DNA of 64,000 bases from Candidatus Bathyarchaeota archaeon (GTDB lineage Archaea > Thermoproteota > Bathyarchaeia > Bathyarchaeales > Bathycorpusculaceae): NCBI GenBank assembly GCA_026014725.1, contig JAOZHV010000022.1, positions 62,001 through 126,000 on the forward strand, read 5' to 3'. Shown here in pieces: positions 34,175 through 58,683 of the stretch. Every line of letters begins with the position of its first letter. Position 1 is the stretch's first letter. Below the pieces are notes generated by a model. The model saw only the letters and a program-made list of their open reading frames with translations, searched no databases and had not been told where the DNA came from. Both the position numbers and the translations under genes were made by a program.

Positions 34175-35122
34175 TTGGCTAAACTGAAATTCGGAGTATT
34201 CCTGCCTTTCTATGCATTCCAAGCCAAAGAACCCAAAAAGTACTACGACCACATCAAAAACATAGTGCTGGAATGCGAAAAAACAGGGTACGACTCGGTT
34301 TGGCTAGACGACCACCTCATGTACAACAACTGGTCCATCCTTGAAAGTTGGACAACACTCTCTGCGCTCTCAAGTCTGACGAGCAAGATTCGCCTTGGAA
34401 CAATGGTCTCATGCATTCAACACAGAAACCCCGCTTTGCTTGCCAAAACCGCGGCAACACTGGATGTCATATCAAACGGCAGGTTAGAGTTCGGCATCGG
34501 AGCAGGAGTCCAAGAAGCAGAGCATGTTGCTTACGGTTTCGGTTTTCCCAAACCGAGTATTCGAACAGAACGCTTAGGCGAGGCTTTGGAAGTTATAATT
34601 CGGCTGTGGACGCAAGAAAAAGCAAGCTATGACGGGAAGTATTATACGCTCAAGGATGCAGTTTGCGAACCAAAACCACTACATAAGCCTCATCCGCCCA
34701 TAACCATTGGCGGAAGCGGAGAAAAACTGCTCAAAGTAACTGCACAGTACGCTGACAGGTTCGATTGGGGATATCTGCCATCCATTGAAATCTATAAACA
34801 TAAGCTTGAGGTGTTAGAAAATCATTGTAGAGCAGTCGGCAGGAAATTTGCTGAAATTGAACGTTCATGCTGGCCTAGCGGTCAGGTGCTTATTGCAGAA
34901 AGTGAGGCATCACTTGCTGAGAAAATCTCCAAGGCAAAACCTGCTAACTTTAGCGTGCAAGAGTTCAAGAAAACTGCTTTAGCTGGGACACCTGAACAGT
35001 GCAGGGAACACTTGCAAGTTTACGTTGATTTAGGCGTGACGTACTTTATGCTGTTCTTTGCCGACTTGCCCAGCGTTGAGAGCTTGCGATTATTTGCAGA
35101 AACTGTTGCTGGGAAAATTTAG
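34175..35122 (+). CDS. Luciferase-like (LLM) flavin/F420-dependent oxidoreductase
   Basis: The bacterial-luciferase TIM barrel is clear over 315 residues: KFGVFLPFYAF, ECEKTGYDSVWLDDHLMYN, IRLGTMVSCIQHRNPALLAK, RLEFGIGAGVQEAEHVAYG, PPITIGGSGEKLLKV, and LAGTPEQCREHLQ near the end. Many archaeal members use coenzyme F420; the substrate is unknown. It is not Mer-like enough to call methylene-H4MPT reductase. The start is TTG at 34175 with GGTGG 8 nt upstream. Confidence 0.88.
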   Translation: MAKLKFGVFLPFYAFQAKEPKKYYDHIKNIVLECEKTGYDSVWLDDHLMYNNWSILESWTTLSALSSLTSKIRLGTMVSCIQHRNPALLAKTAATLDVISNGRLEFGIGAGVQEAEHVAYGFGFPKPSIRTERLGEALEVIIRLWTQEKASYDGKYYTLKDAVCEPKPLHKPHPPITIGGSGEKLLKVTAQYADRFDWGYLPSIEIYKHKLEVLENHCRAVGRKFAEIERSCWPSGQVLIAESEASLAEKISKAKPANFSVQEFKKTALAGTPEQCREHLQVYVDLGVTYFMLFFADLPSVESLRLFAETVAGKI

Positions 35123-46105: not shown

Positions 46106-47596
46106 CTAGATTGGCTGGCTTATTTCAACCTTATGTTTTTCTTTCCACTCTTTAATTGGAACGCCAAGTTTCTTTTCCACTTCAGTCCGGTGGATGGAGT
46201 TCATTGTGCAGAAAGGAATGATTCTGCCGTCTGGCACTGCATAATGGATGACACAGCGTTGGACTCGTTCAAGGTCAAAATTGTAGGGATCCATAAAGTG
46301 CATTGACGAAACCATGAGCGCGCTCCTTGCAAAGTCTCCAAGCGAGCTGTAGTCGCCTTCCATTAAGACCTTAAGAACGTACTTTCTTAGGAAAGAGAAC
46401 TTTATGTGGCGAGCGGAGCCGACAAGGCGAAGTTTTGCTTTACTTTTGCTACCTTTCACTGCGTCAGCGTAAACCTGCTTGAGTGAGCCTGTGAACTTTT
46501 CGATGTTGCCCATGCGTGTAATAGGCGTTATCTTGCCGTCTTCTATGAACACGAAGGTTGCCATACCACAGTGAGGATGCGCTGTAAACTCCACATACCG
46601 CTTGTCTTTCAATGCGCCAACTGCTTTCGAAACCGGCACAACGACTGGAACAGGATAGAAGTCTGAAACTTTAATCTCGCCGCTGGTTTGCTCTTCAACA
46701 AGACGCATAAAGTCAGTGATTGTGATGCGCATTTTCTCCCGTTCTTGCTGAGGTAGTCTGCCACAGAGCGAAACAGGCTGAACGTTAACGCATCTTATTA
46801 CATCGAAGTTTTTGGCGGCAAAACGAATAATGTCTCCAAGCTGGTGGTCATTGACACCTTTAACCAATGTGACGACTAACACGATGCTGTTATAGCCTGC
46901 TTGGCGAAGGTTTTCGATAGCTTTCATCTTCGTCTCAAGCAAATCCAAACCTCGAATAAACTTGTAAACATCAGGCGTCAAACCATCAAACTGCAAATAA
47001 ATTGTGCTAACCCCAGCCGCCTTCAACTTCTTAGCATACTCGGGGTCAGATGCCAGTCGAACACCATTCGTATTAACCTCTACATGTTTAAAGCCAATCT
47101 CTTTTGCCTTTCGAACAAAATCGAAAAGCTCATTGCGGATGGTTGGCTCTCCACCTGAAAACTGCAGGGCTGTTGCGGGGACAGGCTTGTTATTGTGAAG
47201 GTTCTCAAGCATGCTTGTAACTTGCTCTGCTGTGGGCTCATACACGTAGCCAGCTGCTGACGCGTTAGCGAAGCAAACTGGACACTTTAGGTTGCAACGG
47301 TTCGTAACATCAATAATAGCAAGCGCAGTGTGCGACTTGTGTTCGGGGCAAATGCCGCAATCGTAGGGGCAACCGCGCTTTTTCTCGGTGCGCGGGTTTT
47401 CCAGTCCGTCGCCGTCATAACGGAATTTTTCTGCCCGAACGTATTGGTCGTAGTCAGACCAGTAAAGCTCATGGAAAGCTCCATGCTCAGGGCATTCTTT
47501 TCTGATGAAGACTTTGCCGCCGTCTTCGTAGATGATTGCGTCTAATTGTTTTAGACATTCTGGGCAAATGCTTCTTGTAGATTTAATATCTTGCAT
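46106..47596 (-). CDS. tes: Radical SAM tetraether lipid synthase (Tes) homologue
   Basis: Tes couples two archaeol chains tail-to-tail to make glycerol dialkyl glycerol tetraethers. The sequence shows the N-terminal CPECLKQLDA and HGAFHELYWSDYDQY, an extra cysteine block CPYDCGICPEH and the radical SAM CNLKCPVCFA, as in the Methanocaldococcus enzyme MJ0619. The C-terminal GCTMNS-like FCTMNSIHR is also kept. The ATG at 47596 (MQDIKS) has GAAGG upstream; an ATG at 47656 would add 20 residues that fit the family poorly. S25e follows downstream and a TrmB-type gene diverges upstream. Confidence 0.87.
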   Translation of the reverse strand: MQDIKSTRSICPECLKQLDAIIYEDGGKVFIRKECPEHGAFHELYWSDYDQYVRAEKFRYDGDGLENPRTEKKRGCPYDCGICPEHKSHTALAIIDVTNRCNLKCPVCFANASAAGYVYEPTAEQVTSMLENLHNNKPVPATALQFSGGEPTIRNELFDFVRKAKEIGFKHVEVNTNGVRLASDPEYAKKLKAAGVSTIYLQFDGLTPDVYKFIRGLDLLETKMKAIENLRQAGYNSIVLVVTLVKGVNDHQLGDIIRFAAKNFDVIRCVNVQPVSLCGRLPQQEREKMRITITDFMRLVEEQTSGEIKVSDFYPVPVVVPVSKAVGALKDKRYVEFTAHPHCGMATFVFIEDGKITPITRMGNIEKFTGSLKQVYADAVKGSKSKAKLRLVGSARHIKFSFLRKYVLKVLMEGDYSSLGDFARSALMVSSMHFMDPYNFDLERVQRCVIHYAVPDGRIIPFCTMNSIHRTEVEKKLGVPIKEWKEKHKVEISQPI

Positions 47597-47700
47597 ACTT
47601 TTTGCCTTCTTACACGTAGCGCTATTGCAGAAGTGCTTAAGAACAAATATCACCATAATAAGGTTTCCAAACGTTTCCTACGGTGATTGAGGGGAAAAAC

Positions 47701-50788: not shown

Positions 50789-52174
50789 TTGAAGGTTACT
50801 CTCATTAATCCTCCGTATCCACCCAACGTTCATTCTCATCCACCTTTCATTCCACTGGGCATAGCCTACCTTGGCGCCATAGCAGAACAAGAAGGACACG
50901 AAGTCAACGCCATCGACTGTCAAGCAGAAAAACTAACCTATAACGCCTTCAGAGAACGAATCAGCAAAGAAACACCGGACGTCATCGGAGTAACCGCCAC
51001 TACACTTCTCTACAAGTCGGCCATGAAACTAATCAACATAGCCAAAGAAGCCCACCCAAGCGCCATAACGATGCTTGGAGGGAGCCATGGAACCTTCTGG
51101 GATGAAAACGCCCTAAACGAGTATCCAACTCTAGATATTGTTGTGCGTAGAGAAGGAGAAATAACCTTCAAAGAGCTCCTAAACAACCTGCAAAACAAAA
51201 TCAGCCTCGCAAACGTATTAGGCATAACCCTCCGCCAAAAAGACGGCAAAATCATACGCACACCAGACAGACCATTCATTGAAGATTTAGACAAACTTCC
51301 CTTCCCAGCCCATCACCTTCTTCCGCTTGACGCCCTAAAACGAATGGGCAAAGTCCTCTTCCCACTAATCACCAGTCGAGGTTGCGTTTTCTGGTGTGAC
51401 TTCTGCAGCACAGTGCGTATGTTCGGCAGAGGTTACCGCTGGCGAAGCCCAAAAAACGTTGTTGACGAAATGCAACTTGTCCACGACAAATATGGTGTCG
51501 AACAGGTAACATTTTATGATGATGCGTTTTCAGTTGACCGCAACCGTGTTCTTAAAATCTGCGAGGAACTCCATGCGCGAAAGTTGGATATGATTTGGGA
51601 TTGCGGAACACGGGTAGACATGGTTGACCGAGACCTCCTCAAAACCATGCGTGACGCAGGCTGCATTGCAGTTTGGTTAGGCGTCGAATCAGGCTCAGAA
51701 GCCATCCTAGGCGCAATGAACAAAAAAATAAAGCTTGACCAAACCCGCTTAGCCTACAAAACAGCTCACGATGTTGGACTAATGACAATCGCTAACGTAG
51801 TTTTAGGGTTCCCAGGTGAAACCGAACAAACAGCCAAAGAAACCATCCGCTTTGTCAAAGAACTAAACCCAGACGATGTTGGCTTCTACGTTGCCACACC
51901 ATACCCGGGAACACCAATGTATGACCAAGTAATCAAAAACGGCTGGCTTCGCGTAACAGACTTCGACAAATATGACACGGCTGGACCAACATTCGAAACG
52001 CCTTGGTTGAGCATGGAGAAACTTGCTGAACTCCGCTACAAAGCCTACCAACAATTCTACCTACGCCCAGGCTACGTGTTAAAAATGATGCGCAGAGGCG
52101 GGACATATGGAATTTCAGCTGTTAAAACTTCAGGCGCTTACTTGCTGCGGGCTCTGCACCTGAAGTACTGGTAG
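50789..52174 (+). CDS. Cobalamin-binding radical SAM protein, paralogue 1
   Basis: The B12-binding domain (residues 1-140, VTLINPPYPP ... FIPLGIAYLGAIAEQEGHEV, TMLGGSHGTF) is followed by a radical SAM core with Cys199, Cys203 and Cys206 in GCVFWCDFC. The class contains methyltransferases and lipid-modifying enzymes such as HpnP and GDGT ring synthases. IIRTPDRPFIEDLDKLPFPAHHLL is shared with the paralogue at 62317. The C-terminal extension of about 80 residues is family specific. The start is TTG at 50789. The reaction is not determined. Confidence 0.85.
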   Translation: MKVTLINPPYPPNVHSHPPFIPLGIAYLGAIAEQEGHEVNAIDCQAEKLTYNAFRERISKETPDVIGVTATTLLYKSAMKLINIAKEAHPSAITMLGGSHGTFWDENALNEYPTLDIVVRREGEITFKELLNNLQNKISLANVLGITLRQKDGKIIRTPDRPFIEDLDKLPFPAHHLLPLDALKRMGKVLFPLITSRGCVFWCDFCSTVRMFGRGYRWRSPKNVVDEMQLVHDKYGVEQVTFYDDAFSVDRNRVLKICEELHARKLDMIWDCGTRVDMVDRDLLKTMRDAGCIAVWLGVESGSEAILGAMNKKIKLDQTRLAYKTAHDVGLMTIANVVLGFPGETEQTAKETIRFVKELNPDDVGFYVATPYPGTPMYDQVIKNGWLRVTDFDKYDTAGPTFETPWLSMEKLAELRYKAYQQFYLRPGYVLKMMRRGGTYGISAVKTSGAYLLRALHLKYW

Positions 52175-52486
52175 GTCTTTTCTTTTTCTTACGAACGCCA
52201 CAACAGCCAAAACCAGAACTAAACTACCGAGAGAAACAGTGATTGAAGTAAAGTTGATCCCAATAGGCGATAGTCCTAAGAATAGACCTACCAAACCAGC
52301 TAATCCAAAGCTCAATGCAACCGACAAAACGATTTCTTCAACCAAATCAAGCTTATTCTTGTTAAGGAACAGTATGTTGACTAAACAGTAACCAGGTACA
52401 AAAGAAACAAAAATAAACCCGAAAACATAACGCAAAAACACAAGCAACGAATCATTCGGAATAAGATAGGTAACCAATAATGTCAA
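52130..52486 (-). CDS. DUF1616-like membrane protein
   Basis: The pattern FLRYVFGFIFVSFVPGYCLVNILF, then KLDLVEEIVLSVALSFGLAGLVGLFLG matches DUF1616, a family of archaeal membrane proteins often next to surface-glycan genes. The annotated start is TTG at 52486, but the frame continues upstream to a CTG at 52531 and would then include a complete first membrane helix. The C-terminus overlaps the radical SAM gene by 45 nt in convergent orientation. Confidence 0.75.
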   Translation of the reverse strand: MTLLVTYLIPNDSLLVFLRYVFGFIFVSFVPGYCLVNILFLNKNKLDLVEEIVLSVALSFGLAGLVGLFLGLSPIGINFTSITVSLGSLVLVLAVVAFVRKRKDLPVLQVQSPQQVSA

Positions 52487-52581: not shown

Positions 52582-53493
52582 TTACATGAACATCTTGTAG
52601 ATTGGATGTGTCTCGTCTAGCGGTCTTGTGCCTAAGTCGCCTGCGGCAGATGCAATATATGCGTCTGTGACTGCAACAGCTGGGAACACATATTCCGCTT
52701 GTTCGGCTGGTCCGATCATTAGCCAGTTTGCGCCTACAGTTTGCATGATTGCGTTGGTTGCGGTTCTGCATCCTAATCGGAATTCTTTACCGACGTTTGC
52801 TTTAACCCAACCCATGGTTGTGACAACGTTTCCGCTGCCTAAGCCGACTGGGTGACCATACTTTTCTTTCATGATGGGTATGGTTCTTACGGCTGTACCC
52901 ATGTCTGGAGCGAACGCGGGGATAGCTGTGTCGATGAGTGGTTTTGTGATTCCGCCTTTTTCGGCTAATGCGAGAGCTTCAACGATGACTTTCATTTTGC
53001 CTTCTAAAGTGGTGTCTTTGGGGTCATCTGCAAGGACAATTGACATTTTTATGCCGCTTTCCTTGAGATTTGCCAATTCAGCATCGGTTACGCCTTTGTA
53101 GACAGAGTTGTAGAAGCATCTGTCTTGTAGACCCATCTTTTTCGCCATTGTTGCGGCTGCCATTCGTGTCTTTGGACTCATAGCATCGAGCATTAATGGT
53201 GCGTCAGTGTGTTTTGCAACGAAGTCAATGTACTTCTCAAAAGCGAGTTCGGTTGTGCCGACGATGTCAAAAGCGAATGGGACACCTGTGATGTCGCTTT
53301 GAGTTTGCATAGTGTTTATGATTTGTTCAGCAGCTTGTGCATCAAAAATGCCTTTGTTGGCATCTTGAACCATTTTTTGACCGAGCCAAAAGATAGAACC
53401 AATCAAGAATGTGGGTAGTTCTCCCGGCTGCCCGCCTACTTTCACTTTCGCTATTTCGTATATTTTTTGTTCGGTTTGGAATTTAAAAGACAT
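52582..53493 (-). CDS. MtrH-like methyltransferase
   Basis: The 303-residue protein is collinear with MtrH, the methyltransferase subunit that moves a methyl group between tetrahydromethanopterin and a corrinoid: FKFQTEQKIYEIAKVKVGGQPGELPTFLIGSIFW at the start, LMLDAMSPKTRMAAA, AFAPDMGTAVRTIPIMKEKYGHPVGLGSGNV and MIGPAEQAEYVFPAVAVTDAYIA. The other Mtr subunits are not adjacent, so it is one of the stand-alone MtrH/MtgA-type enzymes. These transfer methyl groups from methylated compounds or to H4MPT/H4folate. It follows the corrinoid protein gene by 19 nt. Confidence 0.88.
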   Translation of the reverse strand: MSFKFQTEQKIYEIAKVKVGGQPGELPTFLIGSIFWLGQKMVQDANKGIFDAQAAEQIINTMQTQSDITGVPFAFDIVGTTELAFEKYIDFVAKHTDAPLMLDAMSPKTRMAAATMAKKMGLQDRCFYNSVYKGVTDAELANLKESGIKMSIVLADDPKDTTLEGKMKVIVEALALAEKGGITKPLIDTAIPAFAPDMGTAVRTIPIMKEKYGHPVGLGSGNVVTTMGWVKANVGKEFRLGCRTATNAIMQTVGANWLMIGPAEQAEYVFPAVAVTDAYIASAAGDLGTRPLDETHPIYKMFM

Positions 53494-53512
53494 TTTTCCT
53501 CATCTGATGGAT

Positions 53513-53941
53513 TTATTTTTTGCCTATTGCCTTCTTTGCTAGTTCAGGAGCTTCTTCTTTGTTTTTGCCGAATAGTGCACCCATTGCGTCTGCATCTTCT
53601 TTTTTAACTGCTGCGCCGCCCATGATGATGCCGATTTTGCCTTTGAGTCCGGCTGCTTTGAGCGCTTCATCTAGTTTTGGAAGGTTGTTTTTTGCTGGAA
53701 CTGTGTTCACTGAGATTGCAATTAGGTTTGCATTGTTTTCTTTTGCTTTGTCAACGAAAACTTGGGGTGCAACGCTTTTGCCGACATCAATGGTTTTAAA
53801 GCCAGCACGCTTTAAGGACCGACGGACTGCTTCTTTTGCTGTGTCATGCATATCTGGTTCAATATTGCCGATGACGACAACGCCGATTGGATTCTCTGGT
53901 TCTGGAGGCTCTTTTTCCATCATAGATTTAAGCCACGACAT
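53513..53941 (-). CDS. Small corrinoid (B12-binding) protein
   Basis: The 142-residue protein has the Rossmann-like cobalamin fold: VVVIGNIEPDMHDTAKEAV with the likely lower-ligand His32, AISVNTVPA and GIIMGGAAVKKEDADAMGA. The usual Asp-x-His-x-x-Gly is DMHDTA, with Ala in place of Gly. The N-terminal helical cap domain of MtbC/MttC-type proteins (about 80 residues) is absent, so this is the bare B12 module. It is first in an operon with the MtrH-like gene; GGTG lies 5 nt before the ATG. It is the likely methyl carrier for the MtrH-like enzyme. Confidence 0.86.
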   Translation of the reverse strand: MSWLKSMMEKEPPEPENPIGVVVIGNIEPDMHDTAKEAVRRSLKRAGFKTIDVGKSVAPQVFVDKAKENNANLIAISVNTVPAKNNLPKLDEALKAAGLKGKIGIIMGGAAVKKEDADAMGALFGKNKEEAPELAKKAIGKK

Positions 53942-54055: not shown

Positions 54056-56377
54056 ATGCTTGCAGTCAATAAAAAATATGATTTGGTGCTGTTAGTTTTT
54101 GCTTTCGCCTTTGTTTACCGTGCAGTTTTGATGCTTTGGGAAACTTTCCCACCTGGTGCGGACATCGGTCTCCATAACAGCGTTATTTACTCAATAACTG
54201 GGTCAGGAAACGCTGATTTCTTCTATAACTTTTATCACATTGGCGGTGGGACATCGCTTACTTTTCCAGGATACCACATTTTCGCTTCAGCAGTAATGTT
54301 GTTTACTGGGTTGCCTGAATATGTAGCGCATGCAGTGGTTGTCTCTTTGTTTTCAGCGCTGATTGTTTTGGCTGCTTTTTTGATAACTAAACGAGTATGG
54401 TCTGAGCCAGCGGCCTATATTGTAGCATTTTTAGCGGCGATTTCACGTTTTGACATCGAGATGCTTATGTGGGCGGGCTACCCAAACGTAATAACGCTAC
54501 TCTTGATTCCAGTAGTGTTCTACCTGTACTTAAACAAAGACCGCTTTTCCACAGCACCTTTCTTAGCCGCAACCTCTATTTTTGCTGGGTCAATATTTCT
54601 AACTCATTCTTTAAGCGTTGCAATGTACGTGGCCATAACCGTTTTAGTAGTGCTCTTTGTAGTGGTTAAACCAAAACTGTTAGGAACAACACCGAAAACT
54701 GGTCTTTACTGGCTGTTACCGATTATTATTGGAGCCATTCTCTTTTCTCCATTTTTAATACAGGCTGTTCCTGCATACTTAAGTAACAACTCTACATTAG
54801 CCGATGATGTTGCAACAAACGCCATCAGGATGGCAACGCTTTCAACCCGAATGCTTCCTCTCGAGTTAGTATTGCCGCTTTTCGGTGCGCTTGCAGGATT
54901 TCTTATTTTTTCAAAAAAGTATTTCGGGCGTTTTTTTGTCTTGCCAACTTTTCTTTTAGTGGTATGGCTTTTTTTGCCCCTCATATTAACGCAAGGTTAT
55001 GTGGTTGGGTTCGCAATTGATTATAACCGTTTCCTTTACTTCTTGATTTTGCCGCTAATTATTTTCATAGGCGTGCTTATCGAGCACGGGGCAGGCTTTT
55101 TTGCGCACACGATAGTTAAATACCGAGACACCCATACGCCGATATACAGTGACAAGAAACTATCACGCTTTTTGTTTTCTCTAACACATAAGAAAGTTTA
55201 CGGCGCGTTCATCGTTTTCTTTCTGCTCTTCTCATTCATTGCAATTCCAATTTTTATGGGACCAATATACAATGCTGGCCAAACAATCCAAAGCTATTAT
55301 CAGACCATGAATAAAGAGGGGTGGGAAGCTATCCAATGGGCAAAAGCCAACACGCCTGCGGATTCAGTGTTTGTTTCTGATGCGTTGTATGGTTGGTGGT
55401 TTAGCGGGTTTGCCCAGCGGCGAACGTACAGTGCTGTTGACCCACAATACCTGTCAATTAATGAGGAATACGCCAAAACCTTGTTTGCAAGAACTTTGCT
55501 TGATACGGATTATTTAATTGACAATGGCTTGGTTCAAGTCAGGGAAGACGGCGGATACATTGCAAGGCATAACCCAGAGATTTTAGCCACGCTTAATTGG
55601 ACCTATTTTCCTTTCTCTTTCTTTAATTTTGACAGCAACAATGTGAAAATCAGGTATAACGGAAACCAATTAGTAAGCTTGGCTCAACTTGAAGTGAAAG
55701 AAATGTCTTTTGAAAGTGACAGCCAACATGCTACAATCGTTGTTACTAGGGGTAACGATTACTTCACCTATACACAACTAACCACAGTTTATAGGGGGTT
55801 ACGTTTCGTTAACTTGACATCAACAATAAAGAGCACAGTTCCCGATGCCAAGTTGGAATGGGTTGATTTAGCGGTTGAATGCGAAGGAACTACGCTGTAC
55901 AATGATAAGCAGACCGTTGCTCTGATAGCTGAAGGCGTAAAAGTCTTTGGGCAATTAATATTTAATACGGAACCGTTCAGTGCAGATTTAGTTAAGCAGA
56001 GCGGTTCCGAAGTAGTGGATTCCGTGCAACTAATTTATTCACTCAATGGAATGTCTAAAGCAGAAATAACAATTTTAGCCAGTGCATATTCAGTTACCGA
56101 TAACCTGCAGTACTACAGAGATGCTAAAACCAAAAGTGACTACTTTCAGCCTATAATTATTTCCAATCTGGAACAAAATCAAAAACCAACGGCACAGGAG
56201 TTTGTACAAGTTTTTAACTATCAAACAGAAATGCAAAACTACAACGTCTCGTACATCGCTTGCAGGGCTCCTGAAATGTACGAAAAGTTTTCCAAAGACC
56301 CCTTGTTTAGCCTTGTGTTTATTAACAGCGAAGTTGCCATCTTTAAAGTTAAAGGGAACCTAAGTCAAGACGGGTGA
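54056..56377 (+). CDS. Large GT-C-like membrane protein with extracellular domain
   Basis: The 773-residue product has about a dozen membrane helices to residue 415 and an external C-terminal half. The loop ETFPPGADIGLHNSVIYS carries an acidic Asp-x-Gly of the GT-C type, followed by LTFPGYHIFASAVMLF. The segment AIQWAKANTPADSVFVSDALYGWWFSGFAQRRTYS corresponds to the region after the helices in oligosaccharyltransferase-like relatives. The beta-rich tail is unique. A strong GGGGGGAAG precedes the ATG. It overlaps the next gene by 4 nt and is its paralogue. Confidence 0.78.
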   Translation: MLAVNKKYDLVLLVFAFAFVYRAVLMLWETFPPGADIGLHNSVIYSITGSGNADFFYNFYHIGGGTSLTFPGYHIFASAVMLFTGLPEYVAHAVVVSLFSALIVLAAFLITKRVWSEPAAYIVAFLAAISRFDIEMLMWAGYPNVITLLLIPVVFYLYLNKDRFSTAPFLAATSIFAGSIFLTHSLSVAMYVAITVLVVLFVVVKPKLLGTTPKTGLYWLLPIIIGAILFSPFLIQAVPAYLSNNSTLADDVATNAIRMATLSTRMLPLELVLPLFGALAGFLIFSKKYFGRFFVLPTFLLVVWLFLPLILTQGYVVGFAIDYNRFLYFLILPLIIFIGVLIEHGAGFFAHTIVKYRDTHTPIYSDKKLSRFLFSLTHKKVYGAFIVFFLLFSFIAIPIFMGPIYNAGQTIQSYYQTMNKEGWEAIQWAKANTPADSVFVSDALYGWWFSGFAQRRTYSAVDPQYLSINEEYAKTLFARTLLDTDYLIDNGLVQVREDGGYIARHNPEILATLNWTYFPFSFFNFDSNNVKIRYNGNQLVSLAQLEVKEMSFESDSQHATIVVTRGNDYFTYTQLTTVYRGLRFVNLTSTIKSTVPDAKLEWVDLAVECEGTTLYNDKQTVALIAEGVKVFGQLIFNTEPFSADLVKQSGSEVVDSVQLIYSLNGMSKAEITILASAYSVTDNLQYYRDAKTKSDYFQPIIISNLEQNQKPTAQEFVQVFNYQTEMQNYNVSYIACRAPEMYEKFSKDPLFSLVFINSEVAIFKVKGNLSQDG

Positions 56378-58683
56378 GAGTCAACGCCTTGATGGATACA
56401 GTTGAAAGAGAGAAAAAAACCGAGATTGCATTCATCACTATTTTCTCAGTGCTCATTTTCGTTATTTTCTATTTCCTCATTTCGATGAATGGCTTAGTTT
56501 TAGGCAATGACCCTGCTGTGCACTTGGAGAAGGCACAAATCTTCTTGCAGACAGGAAAGATTCCGCTAGTAAATTTAGGTTGGACTCCGCCGCTTTACTC
56601 AATCCTGCTTGCGATACTCATGTATTTTACAGGAGCCACTGACATTGGGCAGTTAATCTTTCTGGTGAAAGCTTTAGCGGTAATTATTGATTGGCTAATG
56701 TTCATGTCAGTTTATTTGCTCGGCAGCAAGTTTTTCAACAAGAAAGTCGGTGCTTTGGCAGCGGTTTTGCTGTTGATGTGTTTTCCTATGTTTGAGGTTA
56801 ACTTGTGGGGTGGCTACACGAGTGTTTTGGGTATAGCGTTCATGTTCCTGCTCTTGTTGTATTTGCCCTTATCCCATGAAAAGTTTGGGTATTTGATTGT
56901 GACTTTCTTCGCAGCTTTTTCAATAGTTTTATCCCATCAGCTTGCTACATTTGTGGCTGCACTTGTTTTGCCGCCAGTTATGCTGTTTATGCTCATAAAA
57001 GGCAAAGGGGCCTCTCTTAAGGTTATTTTAGTTTTGATGATTGGCGGAGGCATAGCGTTTGCGCTCTATTATCTGCAGGCAATGATGGGTTATCTTGACA
57101 TGATAATTGAGCACGTGTTTTTTTCTCAGAAAACTTATACTTACCAGATTCCAGCAACCAGCCTTGAATCTTTCATGATTAATTTCGGGTTTATTTTCCT
57201 TGTTGCGTTTGGCGGCTTGTTTGTTGCTTTTAAAGTTTTGAGGGCGGCTAAGAAGCCTATTTTCTATGTAATTTTGCTTGTTAGTTTTGTTGTTCCTTTG
57301 ATTTTGGCTTGGTCTTACTTGTTTGGTTTGTACTTGCCGTTTCAATGGTTCATCTATTATGTGCTTACTCCGACGGTTGTTTTGGCAGCGGTTTTTCTTG
57401 TTTTCATAGCCGATAAGGCGGCGGCATTGTATGTTAGAAGCAGGGCGAGTTTGCGTCGCAACTGGATAAAAATAGGTGTGATTGGCTTGATTGTTTTGAT
57501 GTCGGGAGTGGTTGTTTTGCGGTCAAGCACGGTTTATGGCAAAATCATGGAGGGCAGCGTCTATTATTCGACTTCTGATGTTAAAGCGTTCGATGCAGGC
57601 ATCTGGCTAAGAGACCATTATCCTGAAAACCGCACGGTTGTGGTTACGGAGGTTCCTGGCTTTTGGTTCCAAGAGTACTCAGGCAAGCCTGTTATTGCTC
57701 AAACTGATCTTACGGTGCAGCGGAACGAGATTGCTGAATCAGTTTTGAGTTTGTCTTATGAGATTGAGCATCCGCAGACTTTAGTGAAGGCTTACGAGGC
57801 GAAGGGTGCAATTTCGGATGAAGATTATGTTTCGCTTGATCATATTTGGTATAGGGTTTCTTATTGTTCTGCTGCTGGCAACCAATTGATTTACACGCAA
57901 GATGGGGTTGACTTTAAGGTTTGGCTCTCTTCTTTGAGTAAGCAGGTTGTTTTTGATGACCAGAGTTTCCCAAAGAAGATACAGTTCACTTATTCCAACG
58001 AAAACTTCACCCTAACGCAGACGGTGCTTGTTGAGAACAACACTTACCCCGTGACAGTGGCTTGGACGTTAACGCCATTGCGAAGCGGAATCTCCAACGC
58101 TGCACTCTATCTGAGCACTTTCTTTGACCTCAAATTCACGTTCAGCAAGGCGCATATTCCTCAGGTTTTAGATTGGGTGAATCCTTGGGATGCGCCTTCG
58201 AATTTACGTGAAGTGCATGGAGAAGAGTGGGCGGTTGCTAACTTTGCTGGTTCTGATGTAGCGGGTAGTTATTTGGGGCTCTATGATGACATCAGCGATA
58301 TTGCGTTTGCTTTTCGGTTTGTTGATTTGCCTGAGTGGGGCAACATCGGTGCGTTGCCTAATAGACAGATTGATGCGGTTCGGTTCCAATACGAATTTGA
58401 TAGTTTAGACGTTAATGAGACAGTTTCTTGTTCTTATCAGGTTTTGACCATGTCAAAGAATAGTTTTCCGTCGTTGTCGCCTGAGGGGTTAGAGAGTTTG
58501 TTTGACTTAAAAACAACTGTGTTCACGGTCGCATCGAGAGATTTTAGAGACTACATAGCGCAATATGACATTGGCTTTATCGTTTATGACCGAAACCAAC
58601 TTGACACTAAAATGATTCACAGCAAGCTCTTGCAGTTAATCTATTCAAACGACAGGTATGTAATCTTCAAAATCGCAAAATAA
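56374..58683 (+). CDS. Large GT-C-like membrane protein, second of a pair
   Basis: The 769-residue protein parallels its upstream neighbour: loop VLGNDPAVHLEKAQIFLQTGKIPL with an Asp, about twelve helices, a segment WLRDHYPENRTVVVTEVPGFWFQEYSGKPVIAQTD, and an extracellular beta domain. The GTG at 56374 overlaps the previous stop; an ATG at 56392 is an alternative. The pair may form a heteromeric glycosyltransferase or act on successive sugars (inference). Confidence 0.76.
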   Translation: MRVNALMDTVEREKKTEIAFITIFSVLIFVIFYFLISMNGLVLGNDPAVHLEKAQIFLQTGKIPLVNLGWTPPLYSILLAILMYFTGATDIGQLIFLVKALAVIIDWLMFMSVYLLGSKFFNKKVGALAAVLLLMCFPMFEVNLWGGYTSVLGIAFMFLLLLYLPLSHEKFGYLIVTFFAAFSIVLSHQLATFVAALVLPPVMLFMLIKGKGASLKVILVLMIGGGIAFALYYLQAMMGYLDMIIEHVFFSQKTYTYQIPATSLESFMINFGFIFLVAFGGLFVAFKVLRAAKKPIFYVILLVSFVVPLILAWSYLFGLYLPFQWFIYYVLTPTVVLAAVFLVFIADKAAALYVRSRASLRRNWIKIGVIGLIVLMSGVVVLRSSTVYGKIMEGSVYYSTSDVKAFDAGIWLRDHYPENRTVVVTEVPGFWFQEYSGKPVIAQTDLTVQRNEIAESVLSLSYEIEHPQTLVKAYEAKGAISDEDYVSLDHIWYRVSYCSAAGNQLIYTQDGVDFKVWLSSLSKQVVFDDQSFPKKIQFTYSNENFTLTQTVLVENNTYPVTVAWTLTPLRSGISNAALYLSTFFDLKFTFSKAHIPQVLDWVNPWDAPSNLREVHGEEWAVANFAGSDVAGSYLGLYDDISDIAFAFRFVDLPEWGNIGALPNRQIDAVRFQYEFDSLDVNETVSCSYQVLTMSKNSFPSLSPEGLESLFDLKTTVFTVASRDFRDYIAQYDIGFIVYDRNQLDTKMIHSKLLQLIYSNDRYVIFKIAK

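Follow-up and report, generated by a model that had tools for sequence, protein, structure and literature searches.

A gene for a small B12-binding protein that is directly followed by a gene of the MtrH family in a Bathyarchaeota genome raises the question whether the two proteins deliver methyl groups to tetrahydromethanopterin (H4MPT) or withdraw them from it, and which enzyme is served by the transfer. The pair lies in a stretch of 64 kb of DNA, hereafter the window. A sequence-only reading of this DNA had proposed that the MtrH and a carrier of unusual design bring methyl groups from some donor into H4MPT or tetrahydrofolate, as in MtgA/MtoA-type systems.

The main text of Loh et al. (2021; PMC7886697) describes a couple of corrinoid protein (CoP) and MtrH in all Bathy-6 MAGs of that study, with the same genes, adjacency and lineage as the pair studied here; the genes are therefore known and not new. 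Loh et al. noted that an MT-I is missing, found metE beside CoP-MtrH in Methanomethylicus, and offered catabolic and anabolic readings alike, leaving the choice open. They also report that uncultured archaea have been credited with methylotrophy on the strength of an isolated MtrH adjoining a corrinoid protein. The passages of that paper on the couple do not mention the lack of a cap, the Ala/Pro and Asn changes in the motifs, the third gene, the exclusion of split MetE or the DxM paralogue, all described below. Added here are the group of compact CoPs, the near exclusion of split MetE by MtrH, the link between core synthases and methyl donors, and the MesC-type synthase of the host.

A compact corrinoid protein gene is followed by an MtrH gene

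In the list of open reading frames of the window, the compact CoP is encoded at 53513-53941 on the minus strand (142 aa, ATG start) and MtrH at 52582-53493 on the same strand (303 aa, ATG start), with a gap of 19 nt between them. MtrH is directly followed by a gene for a small DUF1616-like membrane protein (52130-52486, minus strand). Bacterial-type promoter and terminator signals were no more frequent than chance. CoP and then MtrH were adjacent in all 49 relatives that were fetched, and this adjacency is not chance. The nearest public relatives are Bathyarchaeota MAGs, and an MCG-6 archaeon (L023) is among those fetched. Among the ten proteins of the region searched with Pfam, no MT-I and no reactivating ATPase could be identified, so that, for the neighbours tested, the sequence-only reading was right in placing neither a substrate methyltransferase nor an activase beside the pair.

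Several other genes of the surroundings were inspected. A B12-binding radical SAM protein is encoded at 50789-52174 on the plus strand, convergent with the CoP and MtrH genes, and its homologue cluster was counted in 25 of the 49 related loci, a count that includes possible shadow frames. Genes for cobalamin metabolism were seen near the pair in relatives (CobS at L060:3098-3886, CbiZ at L054:7791-8864), and neither was present among the window neighbours tested. Two candidates for methanopterin-related enzymes in the window were rejected. The radical SAM protein at 46106-47656 (minus strand), suggested by the Pfam zinc ribbon HMPTM, is better explained as a tetraether lipid synthase (Tes, 675 versus 450 bits), and the F420-dependent LLM protein at 34175-35122 is not Mer (TIGR03555, 85.9 versus 348.7 bits).

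The corrinoid protein lacks a cap domain

CoP matched the B12-binding domain PF02310 with 51.9 bits (cut-off 32.1), and no cap domain was identified in it by Pfam. The cap domain PF02607 (B12-binding_2) had no match in the entire host genome, while 9 of 14 control genomes were positive. The best NCBIfam match of CoP was MtbC, which aligned only from position 77 of 203, and the closest solved chains were MttC (7xcn) and 1y80 from Moorella. An AlphaFold2 model of CoP was obtained from 21 aligned homologues (pLDDT 81, pTM 0.76) and was superimposed by Foldseek on the cobalamin domains of 1y80 and MttC 7xcn, with 1.2 Å over 122 columns. Only residues 1-20 stand where the cap would be in this model; they correspond to a conserved N-terminal 20-residue peptide, MSWLKSMMEKEPPEPENPIG, and include one short helix. 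Pfam, NCBIfam and the model thus agree that the cap is absent, as had been claimed for a carrier of unusual design.

The cobalamin motifs of CoP were compared with the usual DxHxxG and SxL. The first is found as D30-M-H32-D-T-A35, at 53837-53854 on the minus strand as computed from the ORF coordinates. The His of this motif does not vary among 50 sequences, and its sixth position is taken by Ala in 45 of them and by Pro in the other 5, which bears out the substitution of Gly by Ala noticed earlier in the 142-residue protein ahead of MtrH. The second motif reads S-V-N (SxN), with the GG retained. Asp30, His32 and Gly108-Gly109 are invariant in all 21 aligned CoPs. CoP is predicted to bind cobalamin, with His32 as the presumed lower axial ligand of the cobalt. 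The fold of the B12 domain and the DxH are shared with MttC/MtbC (7xcn, NF041607) and Moorella 1y80, and more generally the domain and DxH are those of methyltransferase-cognate corrinoid proteins (MtbC/MttC/MtgC/MtaC). However, CoP differs from these proteins by the lack of N-terminal cap helices (PF02607), by DxHxxA/P and SxN, and by the lack of an MT-I partner nearby.

The host genome encodes a single MtrH

MtrH matched PF02007 with 267.8 bits (cut-off 22.8) and TIGR01114 with 273.3 bits (cut-off 271.4), residues 2-301 being aligned on positions 1-313 of 314, and the solved MtrH 8z9u was matched by phmmer with 7e-55. The protein is therefore a full-length match to the family of MtrH from the methanogen Mtr complex (TIGR01114; PDB 8z9u, 9qtp), just over the equivalog cut-off. 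In contrast to methanogen MtrH, it has none of the genes mtrA-G beside it, its neighbours being the B12-binding protein, the DUF1616-like protein and unrelated genes, and its partner is a Rossmann B12 protein and not MtrA. A search of the whole genome found no second MtrH. There is thus no further MtrH of which the pair could be a duplicate, and a spare copy of an Mtr complex was rejected as far as MtrH goes.

MtgA (NF047990; PDB 6sj8) is likewise a stand-alone MtrH homologue that works with a separate corrinoid protein, but MtrH of the pair reached only 205.5 bits with this model, the cut-off being 550. For comparison, the 30 MtrH loci with the best scores in the 201 class genomes (L064-L093) were inspected. 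Their MtrHs are 36-42% identical to that of the pair. Several of them adjoin MttB-like, URO-D-like or RACo-like proteins and three adjoin other mtr-like genes, as named by eye, and the corrinoid proteins next to these MtrHs are 213-237 aa long and capped. The position of Gln39 is also different, being His in 22 and Gln in 3 of these 30 MtrHs and Gln in 47 of 50 MtrHs of the compact-CoP type. Those MtrHs of the class that stand beside an apparent MT-I or activase are thus of another kind, which speaks against an MtgA/MtoA-like use of the pair. Three MtrH paralogues carry one in-frame TAG each (G024:C57:13662-14474, G169:C108:4754-5566 and G101:C221:66-746), which possibly indicates pyrrolysine or a pseudogene.

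Distribution of compact CoPs in the class

The host genome has a size of 2.56 Mb in 63 contigs and is 97.4% complete. It holds two CdhD-family genes and 13 B12-binding matches, of which 11 lie in frames of 473-525 aa (among them the radical SAM protein at 50789-52174 of the window), one is CoP and one is a frame of 210 aa. The distribution was studied in 201 class genomes, some of them as incomplete as 52%. Full-length matches to the CoP query had 54-100% identity and were mostly short frames; below a gap, the CoP matches listed had at most 40% identity, lay in frames of at least 207 aa and were mostly capped. Judged by their sequences, the compact CoPs are a distinct group. Upstream starts lengthen two of their frames to 213 and 235 aa. 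Compact CoP was present in 50 of the 201 genomes, 44 from the host's family and 6 from one other genus, and MtrH was present in each of these 50.

A second compact CoP paralogue, away from MtrH, was observed at ten loci (L203-L212: G167:C109, G069:C6, G034:C160, G039:C1, G141:C7, G099:C31, G048:C1, G177:C46, G090:C15 and G157:C60). The His of DxH is replaced by Met in nine of them and by Ile in one. Two further matches to this second paralogue, in G126 and as a second fragment in G157, stand outside this count. The neighbours of the DxM paralogue are variable, and it was not found in the host genome.

A putative MesC-type methionine synthase is encoded in the host genome

With PF01717 (Meth_synt_2) no match was obtained in the host even at E 10. 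As the same model was also silent in the Methanosarcina acetivorans control, this absence meant little. Indeed, with the MesC-type protein of G093 as query, a host protein with 69% identity was found at G000:C59:208388-209404. The query had matches in 108 of the 201 genomes, many of them weak, at about 22-33% identity. The host protein matched NF004712 ('methionine synthase') over its full length with 219.6 bits and E 5.8e-65, below the cut-off of 387. The zinc-ligand positions HxH (HLH) and PDCG are kept at 30 of 30 MesC-type loci, and the zinc-ligand Glu at all 29 loci whose stretch reaches this position (the stretch of L160 ends earlier). The host copy (L147) reads HLH...SFEY...GPDCG and hence has the His-x-His, Glu and Cys ligands of MesC. 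Its gene is not near the CoP-MtrH pair.

The acceptor candidate of the host therefore bears the His-x-His zinc signature of MesC, one of the core synthases MesA-D of Price et al. (2021; PMC7857596). According to the predictions of that study, the methyl donor is CoFeSP in the case of MesC and MtrA in the case of MesA, and MtrH is not mentioned in the main text of that paper. The characterised core-MetE enzymes are reported to use methylcobalamin and are thought to require a corrinoid protein (PMC7005905, PMC7857596). According to the paper on bacterial core-MetE (PMC7005905), Schroder and Thauer included methanogen MtrH among the candidates for the donor side of core-MetE, which is a direct precedent for the idea of an MtrH-fed core synthase.

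MetE-like 'core' proteins of ∼315 aa at L125-L127 and L133-L137 have Gly or Ala in place of the zinc-ligand Glu. To judge from this replacement they may not be methionine synthases, and they are perhaps demethylases.

A MetH route was considered as well, since its chemistry, from pterin via cobalamin to homocysteine, is like the one proposed below. The homocysteine domain PF02574 is absent from the host and from 200 of the 201 class genomes, and the host has no cap domain; a MetH-like trio was therefore rejected. The lone PF02574 domain (G148:C50:1766-2569, in a frame of 786 aa) is regarded as a transfer or contamination.

MtrH and split MetE are nearly mutually exclusive

Split MetE was defined by two or more PF01717 matches, and the cases listed are mostly adjacent frames of ∼390 and ∼330 aa. 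Among the 201 genomes, 45 had two or more matches and 31 had one. Co-occurrence is given below in the order both/first only/second only/neither, and counts of MtrH pool all MtrH types.

MtrH and split MetE were found to be nearly mutually exclusive (5/125/40/31, Fisher p 2e-17). This was observed both within CODH/ACS-positive genomes (5/109/9/24, p 5e-4) and within CODH/ACS-negative genomes (0/16/31/7, p 1e-8), and also at the level of genera (5/56/13/10, p 7.6e-6). When genera were shuffled within families, which is only a rough control for phylogeny, the observed value was 3 compared to a mean of 7.1, and 3 or fewer occurred in 28 of 20,000 shuffles. By genus inside the host's family alone the exclusion was weak (p 0.07). 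For compact CoP and split MetE in the host's family, the counts were 3/41/13/5 (p 4e-7), and in the genomes G142, G170 and G193 split MetE coexists with compact CoP and MtrH. The exclusion points to methylation in methionine synthesis, with a flow out of methyl-H4MPT. Together with the low MtgA score, it leaves the flow into H4MPT that had been assumed by analogy to MtgA/MtoA less well supported.

The distribution of the core synthase was compared with that of the potential methyl donors. Among 119 genomes with a core synthase and without split MetE, 116 had MtrH or CODH/ACS, as did 34 of the 69 genomes without a core synthase. The 32 genomes with split MetE and without a core synthase included none with MtrH and one with CODH/ACS. 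In the 54 CODH/ACS-negative genomes the core synthase was found in 7 of 16 with MtrH and in 3 of 38 without it (p 0.004), which leaves MtrH-CoP as the remaining candidate donor there. No synthase was found in 26 of the 130 MtrH-positive genomes.

Proposed function of the pair

The reading that we favour, with a confidence that stays just short of even, is that the pair acts in anabolism as a methyl shuttle, leading from methyl-H4MPT via MtrH and CoP to a core methionine synthase. MtrH would move the methyl group from methyl-tetrahydromethanopterin onto the cobalt of the cap-less, His32-ligated CoP, and methyl-CoP would donate it to the core folate-independent synthase, in the host the MesC-type protein, for the conversion of homocysteine to methionine. 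A cobalamin-dependent methionine synthase would thereby be split over three proteins, with MtrH in the place of the pterin domain of MetH, CoP in that of the B12 domain and the MetE-type zinc protein in that of the homocysteine domain. The open face of the cap-less carrier would allow it to dock directly on both partners. CoFeSP of CODH/ACS would supply methyl groups to this core synthase in parallel. The pair probably serves methionine synthesis, with the MesC-type protein as candidate acceptor. The best reading of its direction is the reverse of the sequence-only reading and is put forward tentatively. Against the shuttle stand the distribution of MesC in the host's family and the three genomes of the host's genus described next, the joint presence of the pair and split MetE in G142, G170 and G193, the 26 MtrH-positive genomes in which no synthase was found, and the separate location of the MesC gene in the host.

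It is less likely that the pair links H4MPT with another acceptor, such as a second pterin pool, a thiol or another enzyme, while methionine is made via CoFeSP and MesC. In the host's family MesC follows CODH/ACS (50/0/5/7, p 1.6e-6), which is expected if MesC draws on CoFeSP as predicted by Price et al. (2021), and it does not follow CoP: for compact CoP and MesC the counts were 37/7/13/5 (p 0.31), so that MesC as an obligate partner of compact CoP is unsupported by co-occurrence. In addition, CoP and MtrH are kept in G134, G167 and G174, three genomes of the host's genus that are 87-91% complete and in which no MesC, split MetE, PF01717 match or CODH/ACS could be detected. The identity of CoP also exceeds that of MtrH in 42 of the 49 loci (medians of 90% and 80%), and this higher conservation suggests several binding partners. 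However, another acceptor leaves the absence of MtrH from genomes with split MetE unexplained, and as the host has a single MtrH, a second pterin site would have to come from a protein of some other family.

Catabolic methylotrophy ranks next and is considered unlikely. Here an MT-I encoded elsewhere would methylate CoP, and MtrH would pass the methyl group to H4MPT and the Wood-Ljungdahl pathway, as in the sequence-only reading and in one of the options of Loh et al. (2021). It would agree with the co-occurrence of MtrH and CODH/ACS (114/16/33/38, p 1e-9), with the methylamine corrinoid proteins as closest characterised relatives of CoP, and with the MtgB-MtgC-MtgA modules reported for other Bathyarchaeia (PMC10989822). 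However, no MT-I is found beside the pair, and a search of the whole host genome for MT-I of the URO-D type gave no match. Where modules of the class do have an apparent MT-I or activase as neighbour, they use the other MtrHs and capped corrinoid proteins described above. The pair moreover persists in the three genomes without CODH/ACS, so that feeding of acetyl-CoA synthesis cannot be its sole role, and catabolism offers no reason for the exclusion of split MetE.

A membrane-coupled mini-Mtr, in which the DUF1616-like protein anchors or couples the transfer by MtrH and CoP and replaces MtrA-G, is very improbable. In 43 of the 44 relatives whose sequence extends 268 nt or more beyond MtrH, the DUF1616-like gene comes next after MtrH in the same orientation (41 by clustering, L022 and L042 by reading frames). 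In the window it is listed from a TTG, while its homologues start about 20 residues earlier. However, DUF1616 is a widespread membrane family, and a fold search with a model of the protein (pTM 0.54) returned nothing significant (best E 5.0). G134 keeps the pair and lacks the membrane gene in the 372 nt after MtrH (L040), and other membrane proteins abound in the surroundings. Two very large ones of 773 and 769 aa are encoded at 54056-58683 on the plus strand, divergent from the CoP gene. In 11 of the 12 loci whose gene order was compared, homologues of these are found upstream of the pair (fragmented in L057, farther away in L062 and on the opposite strand in L048), but not in L060. A CoP that no longer carries cobalamin, in a pair that is now a relic or a regulator, as the altered DxHxxA and SxN motifs, the missing cap and the His-less second paralogue of relatives might indicate, is hardly credible given the invariant cobalamin-motif residues, the very strong conservation of CoP and its constant pairing with MtrH.

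Returning to the methyl shuttle, if the pair serves methionine synthesis, then MtrH together with a corrinoid protein in a MAG is no evidence of methylotrophy, and the exclusion of split MetE renders the functional question directly testable. A cap-less corrinoid methyl carrier would offer a simple system in which to see how such proteins manage without the cap. With less confidence than for the shuttle itself, it is conceivable that the cap-less carrier, MtrH and a MetE-type core synthase make up a three-protein, H4MPT-fed cobalamin-dependent methionine synthase. It would be a third architecture beside MetE and MetH that occurs in a large part of one Bathyarchaeia family and gave way to split MetE in genomes that acquired the latter, and the DxM paralogue would mark a second use of the same scaffold.
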